This document shows positions 25,504 to 31,542 of a stretch of 34,288 nucleotides of DNA, one piece after another. Origin of the DNA: Acidobacteriota bacterium (lineage in GTDB: Bacteria; Acidobacteriota; Terriglobia; Terriglobales; SCQP01); contig DAIDIF010000057.1 of NCBI GenBank assembly GCA_027451805.1, positions 1 through 34,288 on the forward strand, read 5' to 3'. The position numbers and the translations under genes were made by a program. Numbering within the stretch: the first letter of the stretch is position 1; each line of letters begins with the position of its first letter. The notes beneath the pieces were generated by a model. That model had not been told where the DNA came from and ran no database searches. It saw nothing but the letters and a program-made list of their open reading frames with translations.

Positions 25504-27921
25504 CTATGGTAGCGTGAACTCCAGCTCCCGGCCCGAGGCCAGCGCCGCCGCCGGGAGGCGGTGCGCCAGGGCCGCTCCCCGCGGCGGGTGCACGTGGACC
25601 ACTACCGCGGCCGCCCACCCCGGCGTTGCCCGAATCCGCACCCGCCAGCGCGTGTCGCTTTCCGCCTCCGTGGTCCAGTCCAGCCGCCCGAAGCGCGTCG
25701 GGCAGCGTTCCACCGCGATCCGCTGCCCGCGGCCGAACCAGTGCTTGGACGCCGCCTTCTGGAGGTGCACCTCGTCCCGGTTCCAGTCCTCCCAGCACAG
25801 CAGCCAGCGCAGCCCCATCGCCGGCTGCAGCGTGCTGTTCACCACCGCCGACCACGCATACGGGCTCCCTTCGCCGGGATAGTTGCCCGGCAGGAGCGCG
25901 TCCTCGGGCGCGTAGCGCGAACCGCTGTCCATGGCGAAGCACAGGTTGCCGTACAGCGCCAGCAGGAACGGCCGGTAATCGGCCTGCCGGATGCGCCCCG
26001 CCAGCGTGCCGTGCTCCATGAAGTTGGACGTGCGCGGATAGTCGCCGTCGGTATTCATCCCCAGCATTTGCTCGCCCGCCAGCGCCCGGTGCCGGAAATG
26101 CCCCTCGTCCAGCGCCGCATCGCCCCATTCGCACGTCCACCAATCCATCATGTAACGGTGGTTCTCGTAGCTGGTCAGTTGTTTGGGATCGCGGGCTACG
26201 TCGCCGGTCGTGAAGGGCGTGATCCCAGCCTCCCGCATGGCCGTGTTCCGCCGCCCCAGCGTCAGCTTCAGGCTGCGCTCGATGTCGCCCCGCAGCTCCG
26301 CCGCCGCCTGGCCGGCTGCTGCCGCCTCCTGCGTCAGCCCCGCCTTCGCCAGGCAGCGCGCGTGTTCGTGCAGGCCGCGCCAGATCCAGGCGCTGTTCTG
26401 AAAATAGTAGGGATGGGCGGTCGGCGTGTTGTTGCGCGGGTCGCCTTTATCCGCTTCCGGCGAACCCCAGATCAGCCCGTGCCGCGCATCGCCGGCAGGG
26501 AATTGCTGCCGGGTGTACGCCCGGCGCGCCTCCACCAGCCCGATCATGCGCCGCAGCACCGGCAGGCGCCGCTCCAGCGCCGCCCGGTCGCCGGTGTAGT
26601 CGAAGTGCCGTGCGGAGTTGGCCAGAAACACACCCGCGTTCAGCGGCGCCTCGACCTGATCCTGGGTGTTGTAGGTGAAGTCGCCGTCCGGGAGGATGTA
26701 ATGCTTCAAGTAGTGCTCGAAGTACGGCTCGGCTTCCGCCGCCAAACCCCAGACTTGCTGCGCCCAAACGAATTCGTAGTGCGCCACCGGAAAGAGCGCG
26801 TGGCTGCGTTCGGGGATCTTGGTATAGGCGCCCTCGCCCACCTGATAGGTCGGCTCCAGTCCGCGGTAGCTGCACCGTGTCATCACGATCCCGGCGCGCG
26901 CCGCATCGGCCAGCCAGGGGTCGGGAATGTCGGCCTGCATCGCGTTGGCGAAGAACCCGCTCCAGCGCCGCCAGATCGCCAGCAGTGCGCTGAAGAAGGC
27001 CGCTCCGTCCCCGTTCCAGTACCGGTCGGCTTCGCCCGCCGCCACCGCCGCCGCGCCCGCGCCGCTGTCGCCGGCGGGAATCAGCCCCTTGGTTTCCGCC
27101 GGCAGCAGCGCCCGCACCCGCGCCAGCGGCTGCGCCTGCTCGCCCTCCGGCAGCACCATCATCACTTCGTAGCCCAGTTGGTAGCGCGGATTCCACACCC
27201 CGATATCCGCCGCCGGCAACCAGCCGCCCAACAGCGTGCGCTTGCTGTATCCCGGCACCGCGTCGTAGAGATATTCCGACGGCAGCAAGCGCCGCGGGTC
27301 GAACTTCCGTCCGGTCATGTCCGGCGCCCAGAGCGACTGCGGATTGCCGCCGAACTGCCGCGACGTCCCATCCGCCTCCAGCCAGAGCGAGCCCTGCGGC
27401 CCCGCCTGCTCGTTCGCCACCAGCGTCCAGCCGATGAGCTCTGCGCCCAAGGCGGCAACGTTCTCATAGCAGGGGTCTTCGTTCGATCCCAGCACGTACT
27501 CGCCGCCCGCATCCGGCCCGGCGGTGTAGCGGGCCGGGCGTTGTACGCGCGCGGGGTCCGGATTCACCGGCCGCGGCCGGATGCTGGCCAGTTGCCCGAT
27601 GCCTTTGGGGATGCGCGCCACCTCGTCGCCCGATGCGTTGACGTACACCAGTACGCCGCGATGCGTGGCGTGCTTTTCGTAAACCGAGGTTCCGTCGTCG
27701 AGCGTCGCCAGCTTGCGCCACCCCCGCGCTCCCGCGCCGAGCGGCGCTTCGGCCAGCGCCTCGCGTTCGCCCGGCAGGAGCCGGGAGTATTCGTTGTCGA
27801 TCCGTGCCGGCGTGTAGCCGGGCGAGGTTTCCCGCAGCCGCGCCATCGCCTTGCCGACCCGGGCGATCTCGCTGCCGGCGGGAACCGCCGCCGCTGCTTT
27901 CAGAAAGGTTCGTCGCCGCAT
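25504..27921 (-). CDS. Tat-exported (alpha/alpha)6-barrel, six-hairpin-glycosidase-like protein
   Basis: This 805-aa protein opens with a twin-arginine-like signal (MRRRTFLKAAAAVPAG). An N-terminal beta-rich region (~30-320) is followed by a helical toroid-like region (~330-740) with Trp/Tyr-rich repeats such as HYEFVWAQQVWGLAAEAEPY, HPYYFQNSAWIWRGLHEHAR and ENHRYMMDWWTCEWGD. A small beta domain closes it. This plan fits six-hairpin glycosidases acting on polysaccharides in the periplasm or outside. The family and catalytic acids cannot be named from motifs alone. ATG 27921 is chosen because it starts the signal; the frame is open further upstream without homology. The next gene is 3 nt away. 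Confidence 0.7.
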   Translation of the reverse strand: MRRRTFLKAAAAVPAGSEIARVGKAMARLRETSPGYTPARIDNEYSRLLPGEREALAEAPLGAGARGWRKLATLDDGTSVYEKHATHRGVLVYVNASGDEVARIPKGIGQLASIRPRPVNPDPARVQRPARYTAGPDAGGEYVLGSNEDPCYENVAALGAELIGWTLVANEQAGPQGSLWLEADGTSRQFGGNPQSLWAPDMTGRKFDPRRLLPSEYLYDAVPGYSKRTLLGGWLPAADIGVWNPRYQLGYEVMMVLPEGEQAQPLARVRALLPAETKGLIPAGDSGAGAAAVAAGEADRYWNGDGAAFFSALLAIWRRWSGFFANAMQADIPDPWLADAARAGIVMTRCSYRGLEPTYQVGEGAYTKIPERSHALFPVAHYEFVWAQQVWGLAAEAEPYFEHYLKHYILPDGDFTYNTQDQVEAPLNAGVFLANSARHFDYTGDRAALERRLPVLRRMIGLVEARRAYTRQQFPAGDARHGLIWGSPEADKGDPRNNTPTAHPYYFQNSAWIWRGLHEHARCLAKAGLTQEAAAAGQAAAELRGDIERSLKLTLGRRNTAMREAGITPFTTGDVARDPKQLTSYENHRYMMDWWTCEWGDAALDEGHFRHRALAGEQMLGMNTDGDYPRTSNFMEHGTLAGRIRQADYRPFLLALYGNLCFAMDSGSRYAPEDALLPGNYPGEGSPYAWSAVVNSTLQPAMGLRWLLCWEDWNRDEVHLQKAASKHWFGRGQRIAVERCPTRFGRLDWTTEAESDTRWRVRIRATPGWAAAVVVHVHPPRGAALAHRLPAAALASGRELEFTLP

Positions 27922-27977
27922 CCGGCTCACTCTAGCATGCCGTGCCAGGACCCGCGGGCGCGCAGGCGGCTGCCCGC

Positions 27978-30344
27978 CTACCGCTGGAGCCGTACCACCA
28001 ACCGGCTTCCGTTCTCCACCGTTGCCGCGAACCGTTGCCCGGCGCGGCGCAGCGGCGTCGGCGACGAGGAGACGCAGCGCGTCCCCCCCCGCCATTCGCC
28101 TTCCACGTCGATCTTGCCGTCCGTCCGCACTGTGTGGCTAAGCCGCAGCCAATCGTCCCCATACTGCAGGTTGGCGATGGCGTAGCGCTGGCCCGGCCGC
28201 ATCAGCCGCTCGGGAATCGCCGGGCTCAGCTCCAGCGTGAGCGGATCGCCGGTCTCGCGGAATCCAGCGATGCTGCGGATGATATGCGCCACCAGCGTCG
28301 CCCCCCAGCCGTACCCCTCGCCGCCCACCGCGCCCTGCAGGCCCCACATCTCGCAGCTCACCCCCGGCCATCCCAATCCCTGCGTTCCCGGTTCACGCCG
28401 GTCGGTGGAGCGGTAAATGCGCTCGGCGATGTCGGCGGTGACCTCGCCTGCCAGCCGCCGCTCGCCCGCCACCCAGAGCGACTCCAGGTAGGGCAGCACC
28501 AGCGACGCCCACTCCAGGTAATACGCCGGATGCGCGCGGTACTGGCGCAGCCAGGGCAGCATGGCCCGCATCTGCGCCGGCGTCGCCACGCCCAAAAAGA
28601 TCGGCGCCGCCTGTCCGACCTCCCGCCGCAGTTGGCCGTCCTTCGGCGGCGGCGGCACGATGGTCGCGTTGCGCCGCGTATCGAAATCCTGAAACCAGTC
28701 GCGCCCGTTCCACAGGCTCTGCGTCTTGGCGGCGTAGCGCCGCTCCAAGTCGCGCCAACTCGCCTCGCCCGCCGCGTCCTGGAGCTGCCGGCTCCAATCC
28801 GCGAGCACGCCGCAGGCGTGCGCCGTCGCCGCCTGCAGCTCGACGATGCGGATGAAGTCGATCAGCTCGGCTCCGGTCGGCTGCTGGATCTGAAACCGGC
28901 TGGAGGCGTCCATGCCGGTCTCCCAACTGCATTTGCCCACCACGTAGCCGGCGCTGTCGGTGCGGTGCTCCAGCGTCCAGCGCACGAAGCGCGCCACCTG
29001 GGCCGCGAGCTGCGGCAGCCACGGCACGCCCGCGATCCGCCGCGCCACAGACTGCAGGCAGAAGATCGGGTAGCACCATCCGATGGAGGTGCCGCACGCG
29101 CTGCCGTCCGCCGCCACCATGTTCATCTCGCCGTCTTCCCGCATGCACGGCACGTTGCTATCGAGCGCGTCCAGGAACTGGCCCAGCATCACCGCGGTGG
29201 CGTTGCCGGGATCGGCGTAGCTCAGCGCCCACATGTCGATCGAGGTCTCCGCCAGCACGTTGCGCGGCGCCTGGATCTGCATCGCATCCCAGGGATGGCG
29301 GTAATCGCCGATCGGGCGCCGCACCATCGTGCGCAGCGTCTCCAAGTCGTAGACCCAACCGCGCCGCCAATGCACCGGCCAGTCGCCTTCGAGCGTCGCC
29401 GCCCGCCCCCAGAACACGCGATCCTGAAGCTGTTTCCGCTGCAGCTCCGCCGTCGCCGCCGCCTTGGCCTGGCGCTGCGCTGCCGCCGCCCCGCGCGTGT
29501 GCGTGGCGCGCGTCAGCCAGACGCTCACGGTCTTTCGTCCGCCCGCCGGGATCGCCAGCTCGCCCGCCAAGGCAGCAAACAGCGGGGCGGGATAGTAGCT
29601 CACCGCCTCGCCGTCGCCACTCGTGCCCGCCAGCAGCGCCCGCGGCGCGCCTCCGTTCGTGCTGATTGCATGCCGCGCGGACGCCTGGCTCAGGCTCAGC
29701 CGGAACGCCGTGCCCGCCGCGAACCCGCGCGTCGTCGCGGCGTCGCCGGAGGCTTCATACCGGCCCGCGATCCCGTCCCGACCCCACCATTTCGCCGCGC
29801 CCAGGTGATATTCGTGCGCCGCCAGCAGCCCGACGCTGGCCGCGGCGCCGCCTGGATTCGACACTTCGACCTCCGCCGTCAGCGTGTCCTCGCCCACCTG
29901 GTAGAACGTCGCCGCGATCTCGCACCCGTCCGCGGCAAAGCGGTAGGTGAACACCAGGTGGCTGTGATGGCTGGCGTAGAGCTGCCCCGGCGCGAAGTCG
30001 CCGCGGTCGAAGTAGAGTTTCCCGTTAACCGCGAACCCCAGCCGCAACAGCCCGGCATACTTCGCCTCTTCCGCGTAGTCGAAATACCCGCCCGGTCCGG
30101 CCGGGAAGTAGAAGCCGAACCCGATCGCCGCTACCGAGCGCAGCACCCCGCTGCGATGCAGATTCCAGGTATGAAACGGATTGTCCAGGTACCCGTAAGG
30201 CGTGTACCGGCCGGCAGGAAACTCGCCCATCGGGGCCGGCATCGCCGCGGTCGGATTCGCCTCCGTTGCGCCCGCCGCCCCGGGCAGCACCAGTCCCGCC
30301 GCCCCCGCTCCTGCGACTCCAGCCATGAATTCCCGTCGGTGCAT
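27978..30344 (-). CDS. Tat-exported GH63/MGH1-like glycosidase
   Basis: This 788-aa protein has a Tat-like signal (HRREFMAGVAGAGAAGLVLP), an N-terminal beta-sandwich (~40-320) and an (alpha/alpha)6 barrel (~330-720). KCSWETGMDASSRF resembles the G/S-W-E-x-G-x-D motif of GH63/MGH1-type inverting glycosidases, whose Asp acts as general acid. The region AYYLEWASLVLPYLESLWVA and GYGWGATLVAHIIRSIAG near the end are typical barrel helices. ATG 30344 is preferred, with GGAGAGG 3-4 nt upstream; ATG 30359 has AGGAGG but with only 1 nt of spacing. It is the first gene of a six-gene minus-strand run and 56 bp upstream of a second glycosidase-like gene. Confidence 0.75.
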   Translation of the reverse strand: MHRREFMAGVAGAGAAGLVLPGAAGATEANPTAAMPAPMGEFPAGRYTPYGYLDNPFHTWNLHRSGVLRSVAAIGFGFYFPAGPGGYFDYAEEAKYAGLLRLGFAVNGKLYFDRGDFAPGQLYASHHSHLVFTYRFAADGCEIAATFYQVGEDTLTAEVEVSNPGGAAASVGLLAAHEYHLGAAKWWGRDGIAGRYEASGDAATTRGFAAGTAFRLSLSQASARHAISTNGGAPRALLAGTSGDGEAVSYYPAPLFAALAGELAIPAGGRKTVSVWLTRATHTRGAAAAQRQAKAAATAELQRKQLQDRVFWGRAATLEGDWPVHWRRGWVYDLETLRTMVRRPIGDYRHPWDAMQIQAPRNVLAETSIDMWALSYADPGNATAVMLGQFLDALDSNVPCMREDGEMNMVAADGSACGTSIGWCYPIFCLQSVARRIAGVPWLPQLAAQVARFVRWTLEHRTDSAGYVVGKCSWETGMDASSRFQIQQPTGAELIDFIRIVELQAATAHACGVLADWSRQLQDAAGEASWRDLERRYAAKTQSLWNGRDWFQDFDTRRNATIVPPPPKDGQLRREVGQAAPIFLGVATPAQMRAMLPWLRQYRAHPAYYLEWASLVLPYLESLWVAGERRLAGEVTADIAERIYRSTDRREPGTQGLGWPGVSCEMWGLQGAVGGEGYGWGATLVAHIIRSIAGFRETGDPLTLELSPAIPERLMRPGQRYAIANLQYGDDWLRLSHTVRTDGKIDVEGEWRGGTRCVSSSPTPLRRAGQRFAATVENGSRLVVRLQR

Positions 30345-30384
30345 TGTCCTCTCCGTCATGCCTCCTGCCGAGCCTACAGGTTTT

Positions 30385-30439
30385 TGCGCATTCCGTACAG
30401 CGCCCAGCGGGTTCCCGTGGTGCGCATCCGCTTGCGCAT
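30385..30439. repeat. Three copies of TGCGCAT in the divergent spacer
   Basis: TGCGCAT occurs at 30385-30391, 30421-30427 and 30433-30439. Start-to-start spacings are 36 and 12 bp. Each core TGCGCA is itself palindromic. They lie 59-113 bp upstream of the sigma-54 element, the usual range for enhancer-binding-protein sites. Confidence 0.55.
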
Positions 30440-30497
30440 CACCGCCGGACGTTCGTATGCAAGCGGCGTGTTTTCAATCGCGCACCGAAGCCGGAGA

Positions 30498-30512
30498 TGG
30501 CATCCGGATTGC
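30498..30512 (+). promoter_or_regulatory. Sigma-54 (RpoN) promoter
   Basis: TGGCAT-N5-TTGC carries GG (-24) and GC (-12) at exactly the consensus distance and matches TGGCAC-N5-TTGC at all but one specified base. Transcription would start near 30524, ~12 nt before the PEP-CTERM gene ATG, close to the AGGG Shine-Dalgarno (30525-30528). PEP-CTERM genes are RpoN/PrsK-PrsR controlled in some bacteria, which fits. Confidence 0.7.
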
Positions 30513-30535
30513 GTGGTGATTTACAGGGTTGAACT

Positions 30536-31231
30536 ATGAAAGTGAACTGTACGGCCCTCTCGCTTGCCGCCACCGCCGCTGTGCTCGCACTGGCGCTTGC
30601 GTCCCCCCAAGCAGCTCGGGCCGACTCGCTCACCTACCAAGGCGTCGTCTACACGATGTCCTATTTTCAGACCGGAGTTCAGGTCGGCACGTACGACTAC
30701 ACCATCCAGTTGACGGTGGACGCCTCAGGTTTGAATACCGCCCCCTCTGCCTACCTTGCTTCGGTGGCCCCCGGGATCACCGGCGCGGTCGGCCCTAATG
30801 GCCTGGCCACCACCCCTGCCGACTTGATCGCCGCGCCCGGCGGCGTCGGCGGCTGGACCACCACGGTCGGCGGCCTCAACGCCAACGGCTGCAGCGGGAC
30901 GGGCAACTTCTTCTGTTCCAGCGCCAACAGCGACGGTACTTTCAACCTCAACACCAGCTCCAGCGCGTCTTCGCCCTTCCTTTTCCAGTGGGTGATTTAC
31001 GACTCGTCGCTGCCCACCGGCGTGGATGGCATCGCACTGAAATCGGAATTTGTGAACGCAGCCGGCAGCAAGGTTGGCGGTCTGCTCTCGCAGGACTTGA
31101 CGCTCACCCCATTGACGCCGGTCCCCGAGCCCGGCACCTGGGTCTTGATGGCGTCGGGCCTGCTCGCCCTCGTGGGTTTTGCCTTCCACCGCAAGCGCGC
31201 ATGGCTTCCCCCCGCCTCCAGCCGGATCTGA
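30536..31231 (+). CDS. PEP-CTERM sorting-domain protein
   Basis: This 231-aa exported protein has a signal peptide (MKVNCTALSLAATAAVLALALAS, predicted cleavage after QAARA). The low-complexity Gly/Ser/Thr/Asn-rich body (~30-190) contains two Cys. At ~196-222 sits the tripartite sorting signal: VPEPGTW, a hydrophobic helix VLMASGLLALVGFAF and a basic HRKR cluster. Such proteins are processed by exosortase/EpsH and are tied to exopolysaccharide or biofilm formation. Ten residues after the Arg cluster (AWLPPASSRI) are atypical. It is divergent from the glycosidase operon with a 190-bp spacer that holds a sigma-54 promoter. No exosortase gene is in the window. Confidence 0.92.
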   Translation: MKVNCTALSLAATAAVLALALASPQAARADSLTYQGVVYTMSYFQTGVQVGTYDYTIQLTVDASGLNTAPSAYLASVAPGITGAVGPNGLATTPADLIAAPGGVGGWTTTVGGLNANGCSGTGNFFCSSANSDGTFNLNTSSSASSPFLFQWVIYDSSLPTGVDGIALKSEFVNAAGSKVGGLLSQDLTLTPLTPVPEPGTWVLMASGLLALVGFAFHRKRAWLPPASSRI

Positions 31232-31371: not shown

Positions 31372-31542
31372 CTAGCTGCCGTCGTCCTCGTCCTGGTCCG
31401 GCTTGACCGGCACGCGGTAGATGCCGCTCGCCCAGTTGGCCAGATCGCGCGTGCGACAGCGCGGGCTGCAGAAGGGAAATTCCGGCGCGCCCGATTCCAC
31501 CGCGCGCCCGCAGATCGGGCAGCGCCGTTGCTTCTCGCTCAT
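31372..31542 (-). CDS. yacG: DNA gyrase inhibitor-like zinc protein YacG
   Basis: This 56-aa protein is a small treble-clef-like zinc binder of the YacG family. The four zinc Cys are in RRCPICGRAV and FPFCSPRCRTRDL. The family block RCRTRDLANWASGIYRVPVK is complete and an acidic tail DQDEDDGS closes it. In E. coli YacG binds GyrB and inhibits gyrase. ATG 31542 is preceded by GAGG 5 nt upstream and lies 15 nt after the rimO stop, so it is the last gene of the dnaX-ybaB-recR-rimO-yacG run. Its shortness makes it easy to miss. Confidence 0.9.
   Translation of the reverse strand: MSEKQRRCPICGRAVESGAPEFPFCSPRCRTRDLANWASGIYRVPVKPDQDEDDGS

Follow-up and report, generated by a model that had tools for sequence, protein, structure and literature searches.

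A candidate sigma-54 promoter with a TGCGCA dyad upstream of PEP-CTERM genes in Acidobacteriota

Sigma-54 control of PEP-CTERM genes was described in Proteobacteria only, as a motif ending in TTTACA, a spacer of ~63 nt and a sigma-54 motif, together with the pair PrsK/PrsR (Haft 2006; PMC1569441). The 17-nt proteobacterial motif 1 that ends in TTTACA lies 32-92 nt before the sigma-54 motif (PMC1569441). RpoN dependence was shown for pepA of Aquincola (PMC9850573), and DVUA0057 of Desulfovibrio vulgaris, a predicted PEP-CTERM regulator, bound five such targets (PMC3333781). A search of the open literature on PEP-CTERM with Acidobacteria and with sigma-54/RpoN returned no description of the system reported here.

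The window analyzed, a stretch of 34,288 nucleotides, is contig C57 of a draft genome of an Acidobacteriota bacterium (G000; 3.16 Mb, 305 contigs, 95% complete). The product of the gene at 30536-31231 was assigned as a PEP-CTERM protein by PF07589 (27.6 bits, cut-off 20.7) and TIGR02595, and the same locus is found in a sister species (G001) with 79% protein identity. The genome encodes an exosortase on contig C7 (PF09721, 243.7 bits), accompanied by EpsI, and PEP-CTERM genes were found at nine places by Pfam, with one more on C64; it thus combines an exosortase with several PEP-CTERM proteins, as is characteristic of an exosortase/PEP-CTERM system. An rpoN gene is also present (C71:7230-7703; PF04552, 198 bits). 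No Rfam element was found within 30200-30700. Beyond the PEP-CTERM gene, a small minus-strand frame (31372-31542) with paired cysteines is zinc-ribbon-like and, by eye, YacG-like.

Architecture of the promoter

The preliminary description had recognized an ideal −24/−12 site in front of the PEP-CTERM gene. Its coordinates were confirmed: the site ends 23 nt upstream of the gene and has GG at −24 and GC at −12 with the correct spacing, both dinucleotides being kept in the sister species. Exact matches to TGGCAY-N5-TTGC number one in the window, versus 0.18 expected from shuffles, and 14 in the whole 3.16-Mb genome, the window site included. We infer that transcription would start from this promoter at about 30524. 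The features of the locus are collected in the table.

Features of the PEP-CTERM locus and its intergenic region (window coordinates)
Feature	Position	Strand	Remarks
Divergent gene	27978..30359	-	793 aa; sigma-54 site absent from the facing strand
TTTGCGCATTCCGTACAGCGCCCA, block unchanged in the sister species	30383..30406		holds the first TGCGCAT; outside the shared promoter
TGCGCATCCGCTTGCGCA, dyad TGCGCA-N6-TGCGCA	30421..30438		18 bp; proposed upstream activator site of an enhancer-binding protein; centred near -94 relative to the predicted start
CAAGCGGCGTGTTTTCAAT, further conserved element (YAA followed by TTTTCA)	30460..30478	+	TTTTCA aligned in 8 of 10 promoters; TTTTCAAT kept in G001
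TGGCATCCGGATTGC, sigma-54 -24/-12 element	30498..30512	+	match to TGGCAY-N5-TTGC; predicted transcription start ~30524
AGGG, likely Shine-Dalgarno	30525..30528	+	within the predicted 12-nt leader; read from the sequence
PEP-CTERM gene	30536..31231	+	231 aa; N-terminal signal-peptide-like stretch; C-terminal VPEPGTWVLMASGLLALVGFAFHRKR; PF07589 and TIGR02595 above cut-off

The word TGCGCAT occurs three times in the intergenic region (30385, 30421 and 30433), and all three copies had been taken as the site of an enhancer-binding protein (EBP). As a single word, TGCGCAT occurs about as often as expected by chance (11 in the window versus 9.4 in shuffles), so that three copies alone prove nothing. 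The part of the proposal that held concerns the second and third copies, which form a recurring dyad, whereas the first copy lies outside it; the three-fold cluster was thus rejected as a unit, the shared element being the dyad only. This dyad would serve as an upstream activator site (UAS), and an EBP carrying the GAFTGA motif is encoded in the genome.

In the alignment with the sister species, TTTTCAAT is kept within a diverged intergenic region. All three TGCGCA cores, this segment and TGGC-N7-TTGC are retained, while the DNA in between has changed; the dyad reads TGCGCAGGCGCTTGCGCA in the sister species, and the islands of identity include 24 nt surrounding the first TGCGCAT. A further element, TTTTCA, lies in the window 50 nt after the start of the dyad and 27 nt before the −24 T. 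It could be aligned in 8 of 10 promoters, at 50-51 nt past the dyad start, or 41 nt in two promoters of G003, and its distance to TGG is 17 nt in most promoters and 27 in the window and its orthologue. Judged from these alignments, the TTTTCA element is part of the promoter, and the preliminary description had missed it. IHF was considered as its ligand and set aside, the consensus being poorly matched with two to three mismatches in most promoters.

The start of the dyad and the −24 T are separated by 58, 67-70, 77-78 or 87-88 nt, values that differ in steps of about 10 bp or one helical turn. The Rayleigh test at period 10 gave p ~1e-4, a figure that is indicative only because some weaker dyads were placed by profile or by eye. 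Enhancer sites of the NtrC type, bound by a Fis-type HTH, are inverted repeats of about 17-18 bp, found on one helical face some 95 bp before the start. The dyad resembles them in its length, upstream distance and fixed helical face but differs in its half-site, and the regulator here is not NtrC (357.9 bits versus a cut-off of 558.6).

The divergent gene

The preliminary description proposed that one regulator drives both sides of the intergenic region, as an exopolysaccharide-surface module including a divergent glycosidase. The strand facing this gene carries no sigma-54 site in the window species or in G001, the best score being 3.3 bits versus 12.6 bits on the PEP-CTERM side, with approximate sigma-54 weights. 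The repeats were not found before the orthologues of the divergent gene in G004, G009, G002, G081 and G055. Since the facing site is missing and the orthologues lack the repeats, the joint module is not supported. Control of the divergent gene through the same dyad was rejected, as a match to a sigma-70 promoter is also missing on that side. The name glycosidase itself finds no support in Pfam, NCBIfam or PDB sequences.

Two large adjoining proteins with Tat-like N-termini are encoded at 25504-30359 on the minus strand; neither matches Pfam or NCBIfam, and the first has no match to a PDB sequence. A short minus-strand frame, MRKRMRTTGTRWALYGMRKNL (30374-30439), ends just before the divergent gene and has a similar counterpart in the sister species; none of the other genomes searched contained its core. 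The conserved block at 30383-30406 may be part of the divergent gene or of this short frame, which could explain it.

Recurrence of the promoter before PEP-CTERM genes

The dyad was derived from the window promoter and then tested before other PEP-CTERM genes. Exact copies of TGCGCA-N6-TGCGCA number six in the 3.16-Mb genome, two of which precede PEP-CTERM genes (window and C246); at the other four (C82, C98, C210 and C216) no PEP-CTERM gene was noticed, each site either overlapping a long open frame or lying next to one. Upstream of the PEP-CTERM genes of C175 and C245 the dyad is found within one mismatch, and upstream of the C7 gene, beside the exosortase, with two. Among the seven PEP-CTERM genes not used for the derivation, at least three carry the dyad within one mismatch (binomial p ~9e-6). 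Taking G000, G001 and a third related species, G003, together, the dyad within one mismatch precedes 11 PEP-CTERM genes, and in a control with gaps of 0 to 15 nt any spacing other than N6 retrieved 0-2. In G007, a dyad close to the EBP falls within the coding frame of that EBP and was excluded from the count. In G003 (loci L080, L088 and L096), one PEP-CTERM gene is preceded by a pair of dyads roughly 60 bp from each other, which suggests tandem activator sites.

A profile relying on sequence only was built from ten promoters and run over 11 genomes. The ten training sites score by construction, so the evidence lies in places outside the training set. At E up to 0.1, 8 of the 13 distinct non-training places in the three related genomes precede PEP-CTERM genes, three of them at E <1e-5: the match on G001:C233 (E 2e-13), before the orthologue of the C245 gene, and two matches on G003:C85 (E 2e-6 and 6e-6). 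The further ones are G001:C435, G003:C93, G001:C427, G003:C115 and G000:C64. The last (L198) is a PEP-CTERM gene with the C-terminus TTTTPEPPSLVLMGTALLGLFGLGLRRKR, absent from the Pfam list and located through its promoter. The genomes beyond these three gave no match better than E 0.002.

Of the ten PEP-CTERM genes of the window's genome, five have a clear promoter and two (C64 and C272) a weaker one whose spacing keeps the same phase. The upstream region of the C168 gene is cut by the contig end, and the promoter is present in the sister species (C435). The C76 and C295 genes have no such promoter, the former seeming to lie within an operon. The same predicted three-part switch precedes most PEP-CTERM genes in the three related species. 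The idea that the PEP-CTERM gene is preceded by a sigma-54 promoter and a site for an enhancer-binding protein is therefore supported by the rpoN gene, the footprint and the recurrence of both elements; the exosortase proposed with them is present as well.

In three other genomes (G011, G006 and G013), orthologous PEP-CTERM promoters (L078, L079 and L105, respectively) carry TTTTCA 18 nt upstream of the sigma-54 site TGGAATTAAAATTGC and have no TGCGCA dyad. These promoters probably respond to a different activator, or the orthologous EBP uses a different operator there.

Candidate regulator and alternative readings

On contigs G001:C427 and G003:C85, a PEP-CTERM gene, a histidine kinase gene and an EBP gene follow one another in the same orientation, and the dyad precedes the first of them. 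This operon adjoins the exosortase and EpsI genes, with rmlB/C/A also there in G001; in the window's genome its parts are split over C246 and C7, the contig ends overlapping inside the EBP gene. The EBP comprises a receiver domain, an AAA+ sigma-54 activation domain with GAFTGA and a Fis-type HTH, and the kinase is short, with HisKA and HATPase domains only. The EBP orthologues reach 94% in G001 and 76% in G003, both of which have the dyad, while two members of the same genus, G002 and G004, have no orthologue that close and PEP-CTERM genes without the dyad. The regulator is likely the sigma-54 response regulator of this operon, which has the same promoter and stands beside the exosortase, and its EBP would bind the dyad.

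We estimate at about 0.78 the probability that positions 30421-30536 constitute a sigma-54 promoter belonging to an acidobacterial PEP-CTERM regulon, worked by the NtrC-type EBP of the operon through the dyad. In the mechanism proposed, the small histidine kinase of the same operon would phosphorylate the NtrC-type response regulator, which would bind TGCGCA-N6-TGCGCA, always on the same face of the helix and some 95 bp ahead of the start, and remodel the RpoN polymerase at the −24/−12 site. The PEP-CTERM surface proteins would be switched on together, including that of the regulator's own operon, which would amount to positive autoregulation.

The promoter and the dyad could also be real but bound by another EBP, the exosortase-linked one being a mere neighbour. 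About a dozen EBP-like matches were counted in the genome, and in four genomes of other genera (G006, G009, G011 and G013) the EBP orthologues, at about 60%, keep the same recognition helix SYKALLYK with no such dyad before the PEP-CTERM genes, so that we infer the pairing of EBP and dyad. That this dyad precedes the operon encoding the exosortase-linked EBP in three species, and that within the genus an EBP orthology of at least 76% tracks it, nevertheless makes another binder unlikely. Much less probable is a reading of the TGCGCAT copies as codons, MR(K/T) in the minus-strand frame MRKRMRTTGTRWALYGMRKNL, with conservation reflecting the peptide. The dyad recurs at unrelated PEP-CTERM genes at a fixed distance to sigma-54 sites, and the frame is missing before the other orthologues of the divergent gene, although the three copies do share one frame (spacings 36 and 12) with a counterpart in the sister species. 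As for chance matches in GC-rich DNA, the frequency of single TGCGCAT words in shuffles is the point in their favour; for the dyad and the sigma-54 site, the sister-species footprint, the gap-length control, the phased spacing and the non-training profile matches at PEP-CTERM genes refute this explanation, to which we give almost no weight.

Control by a true PrsK/PrsR pair, that is, a plain proteobacterial circuit, would account for a similar layout of UAS, short spacer, sigma-54 site and PEP-CTERM gene (PMC1569441), and a regulator such as PrsR had been suggested for this locus. Neither protein was found in the genome above the family cut-offs, the best matches reaching 430.9 bits for PrsR (TIGR02915, cut-off 502.6) and 83.2 bits for PrsK (TIGR02916, cut-off 300). 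The full-length G001 orthologue of the candidate EBP scores 318.2 bits against TIGR02915, below the cut-off, and the operon kinase is unmatched by TIGR02916 at E 1e-30. The dyad differs from the proteobacterial motif, for which the end only was compared: TTTACA is absent from 30400-30498, and the nearest copy, at 30520, is downstream of the −12 element. Such a circuit is thus highly improbable here.

The system advanced here, with the operon EBP acting at the dyad, shares with PrsK/PrsR a two-component EBP tied to an exopolysaccharide/exosortase locus, and a UAS placed about 50-60 nt from a sigma-54 site before many scattered PEP-CTERM genes. It differs in its UAS, in an EBP and a short kinase whose scores do not reach the family cut-offs, in an operon whose first gene encodes a PEP-CTERM protein, in the extra TTTTCA element, and in its host, a phylum outside the coverage of Haft 2006 (PMC1569441). 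It is probably a variant of the known sigma-54/PEP-CTERM regulon with a regulator other than PrsK/PrsR. PrsR-like circuits are already known; the novelty lies in the operator, the regulator and the phylum. On balance, we lean toward the view that PEP-CTERM control in Acidobacteriota relies on a non-PrsK/PrsR sigma-54 two-component system with its own operator, in which TTTTCA would be bound by an additional factor.

The analysis yields a candidate regulator, an 18-bp operator, a gene list and a promoter profile, which picked up one PEP-CTERM gene that the Pfam search had not. Where the cis motif of Haft 2006 was confined to Proteobacteria and to one regulator pair, the same logic appears here in a different phylum, through a different operator and a different regulator. 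If this is true, sigma-54 control of PEP-CTERM proteins would have evolved around different regulators from one phylum to another.
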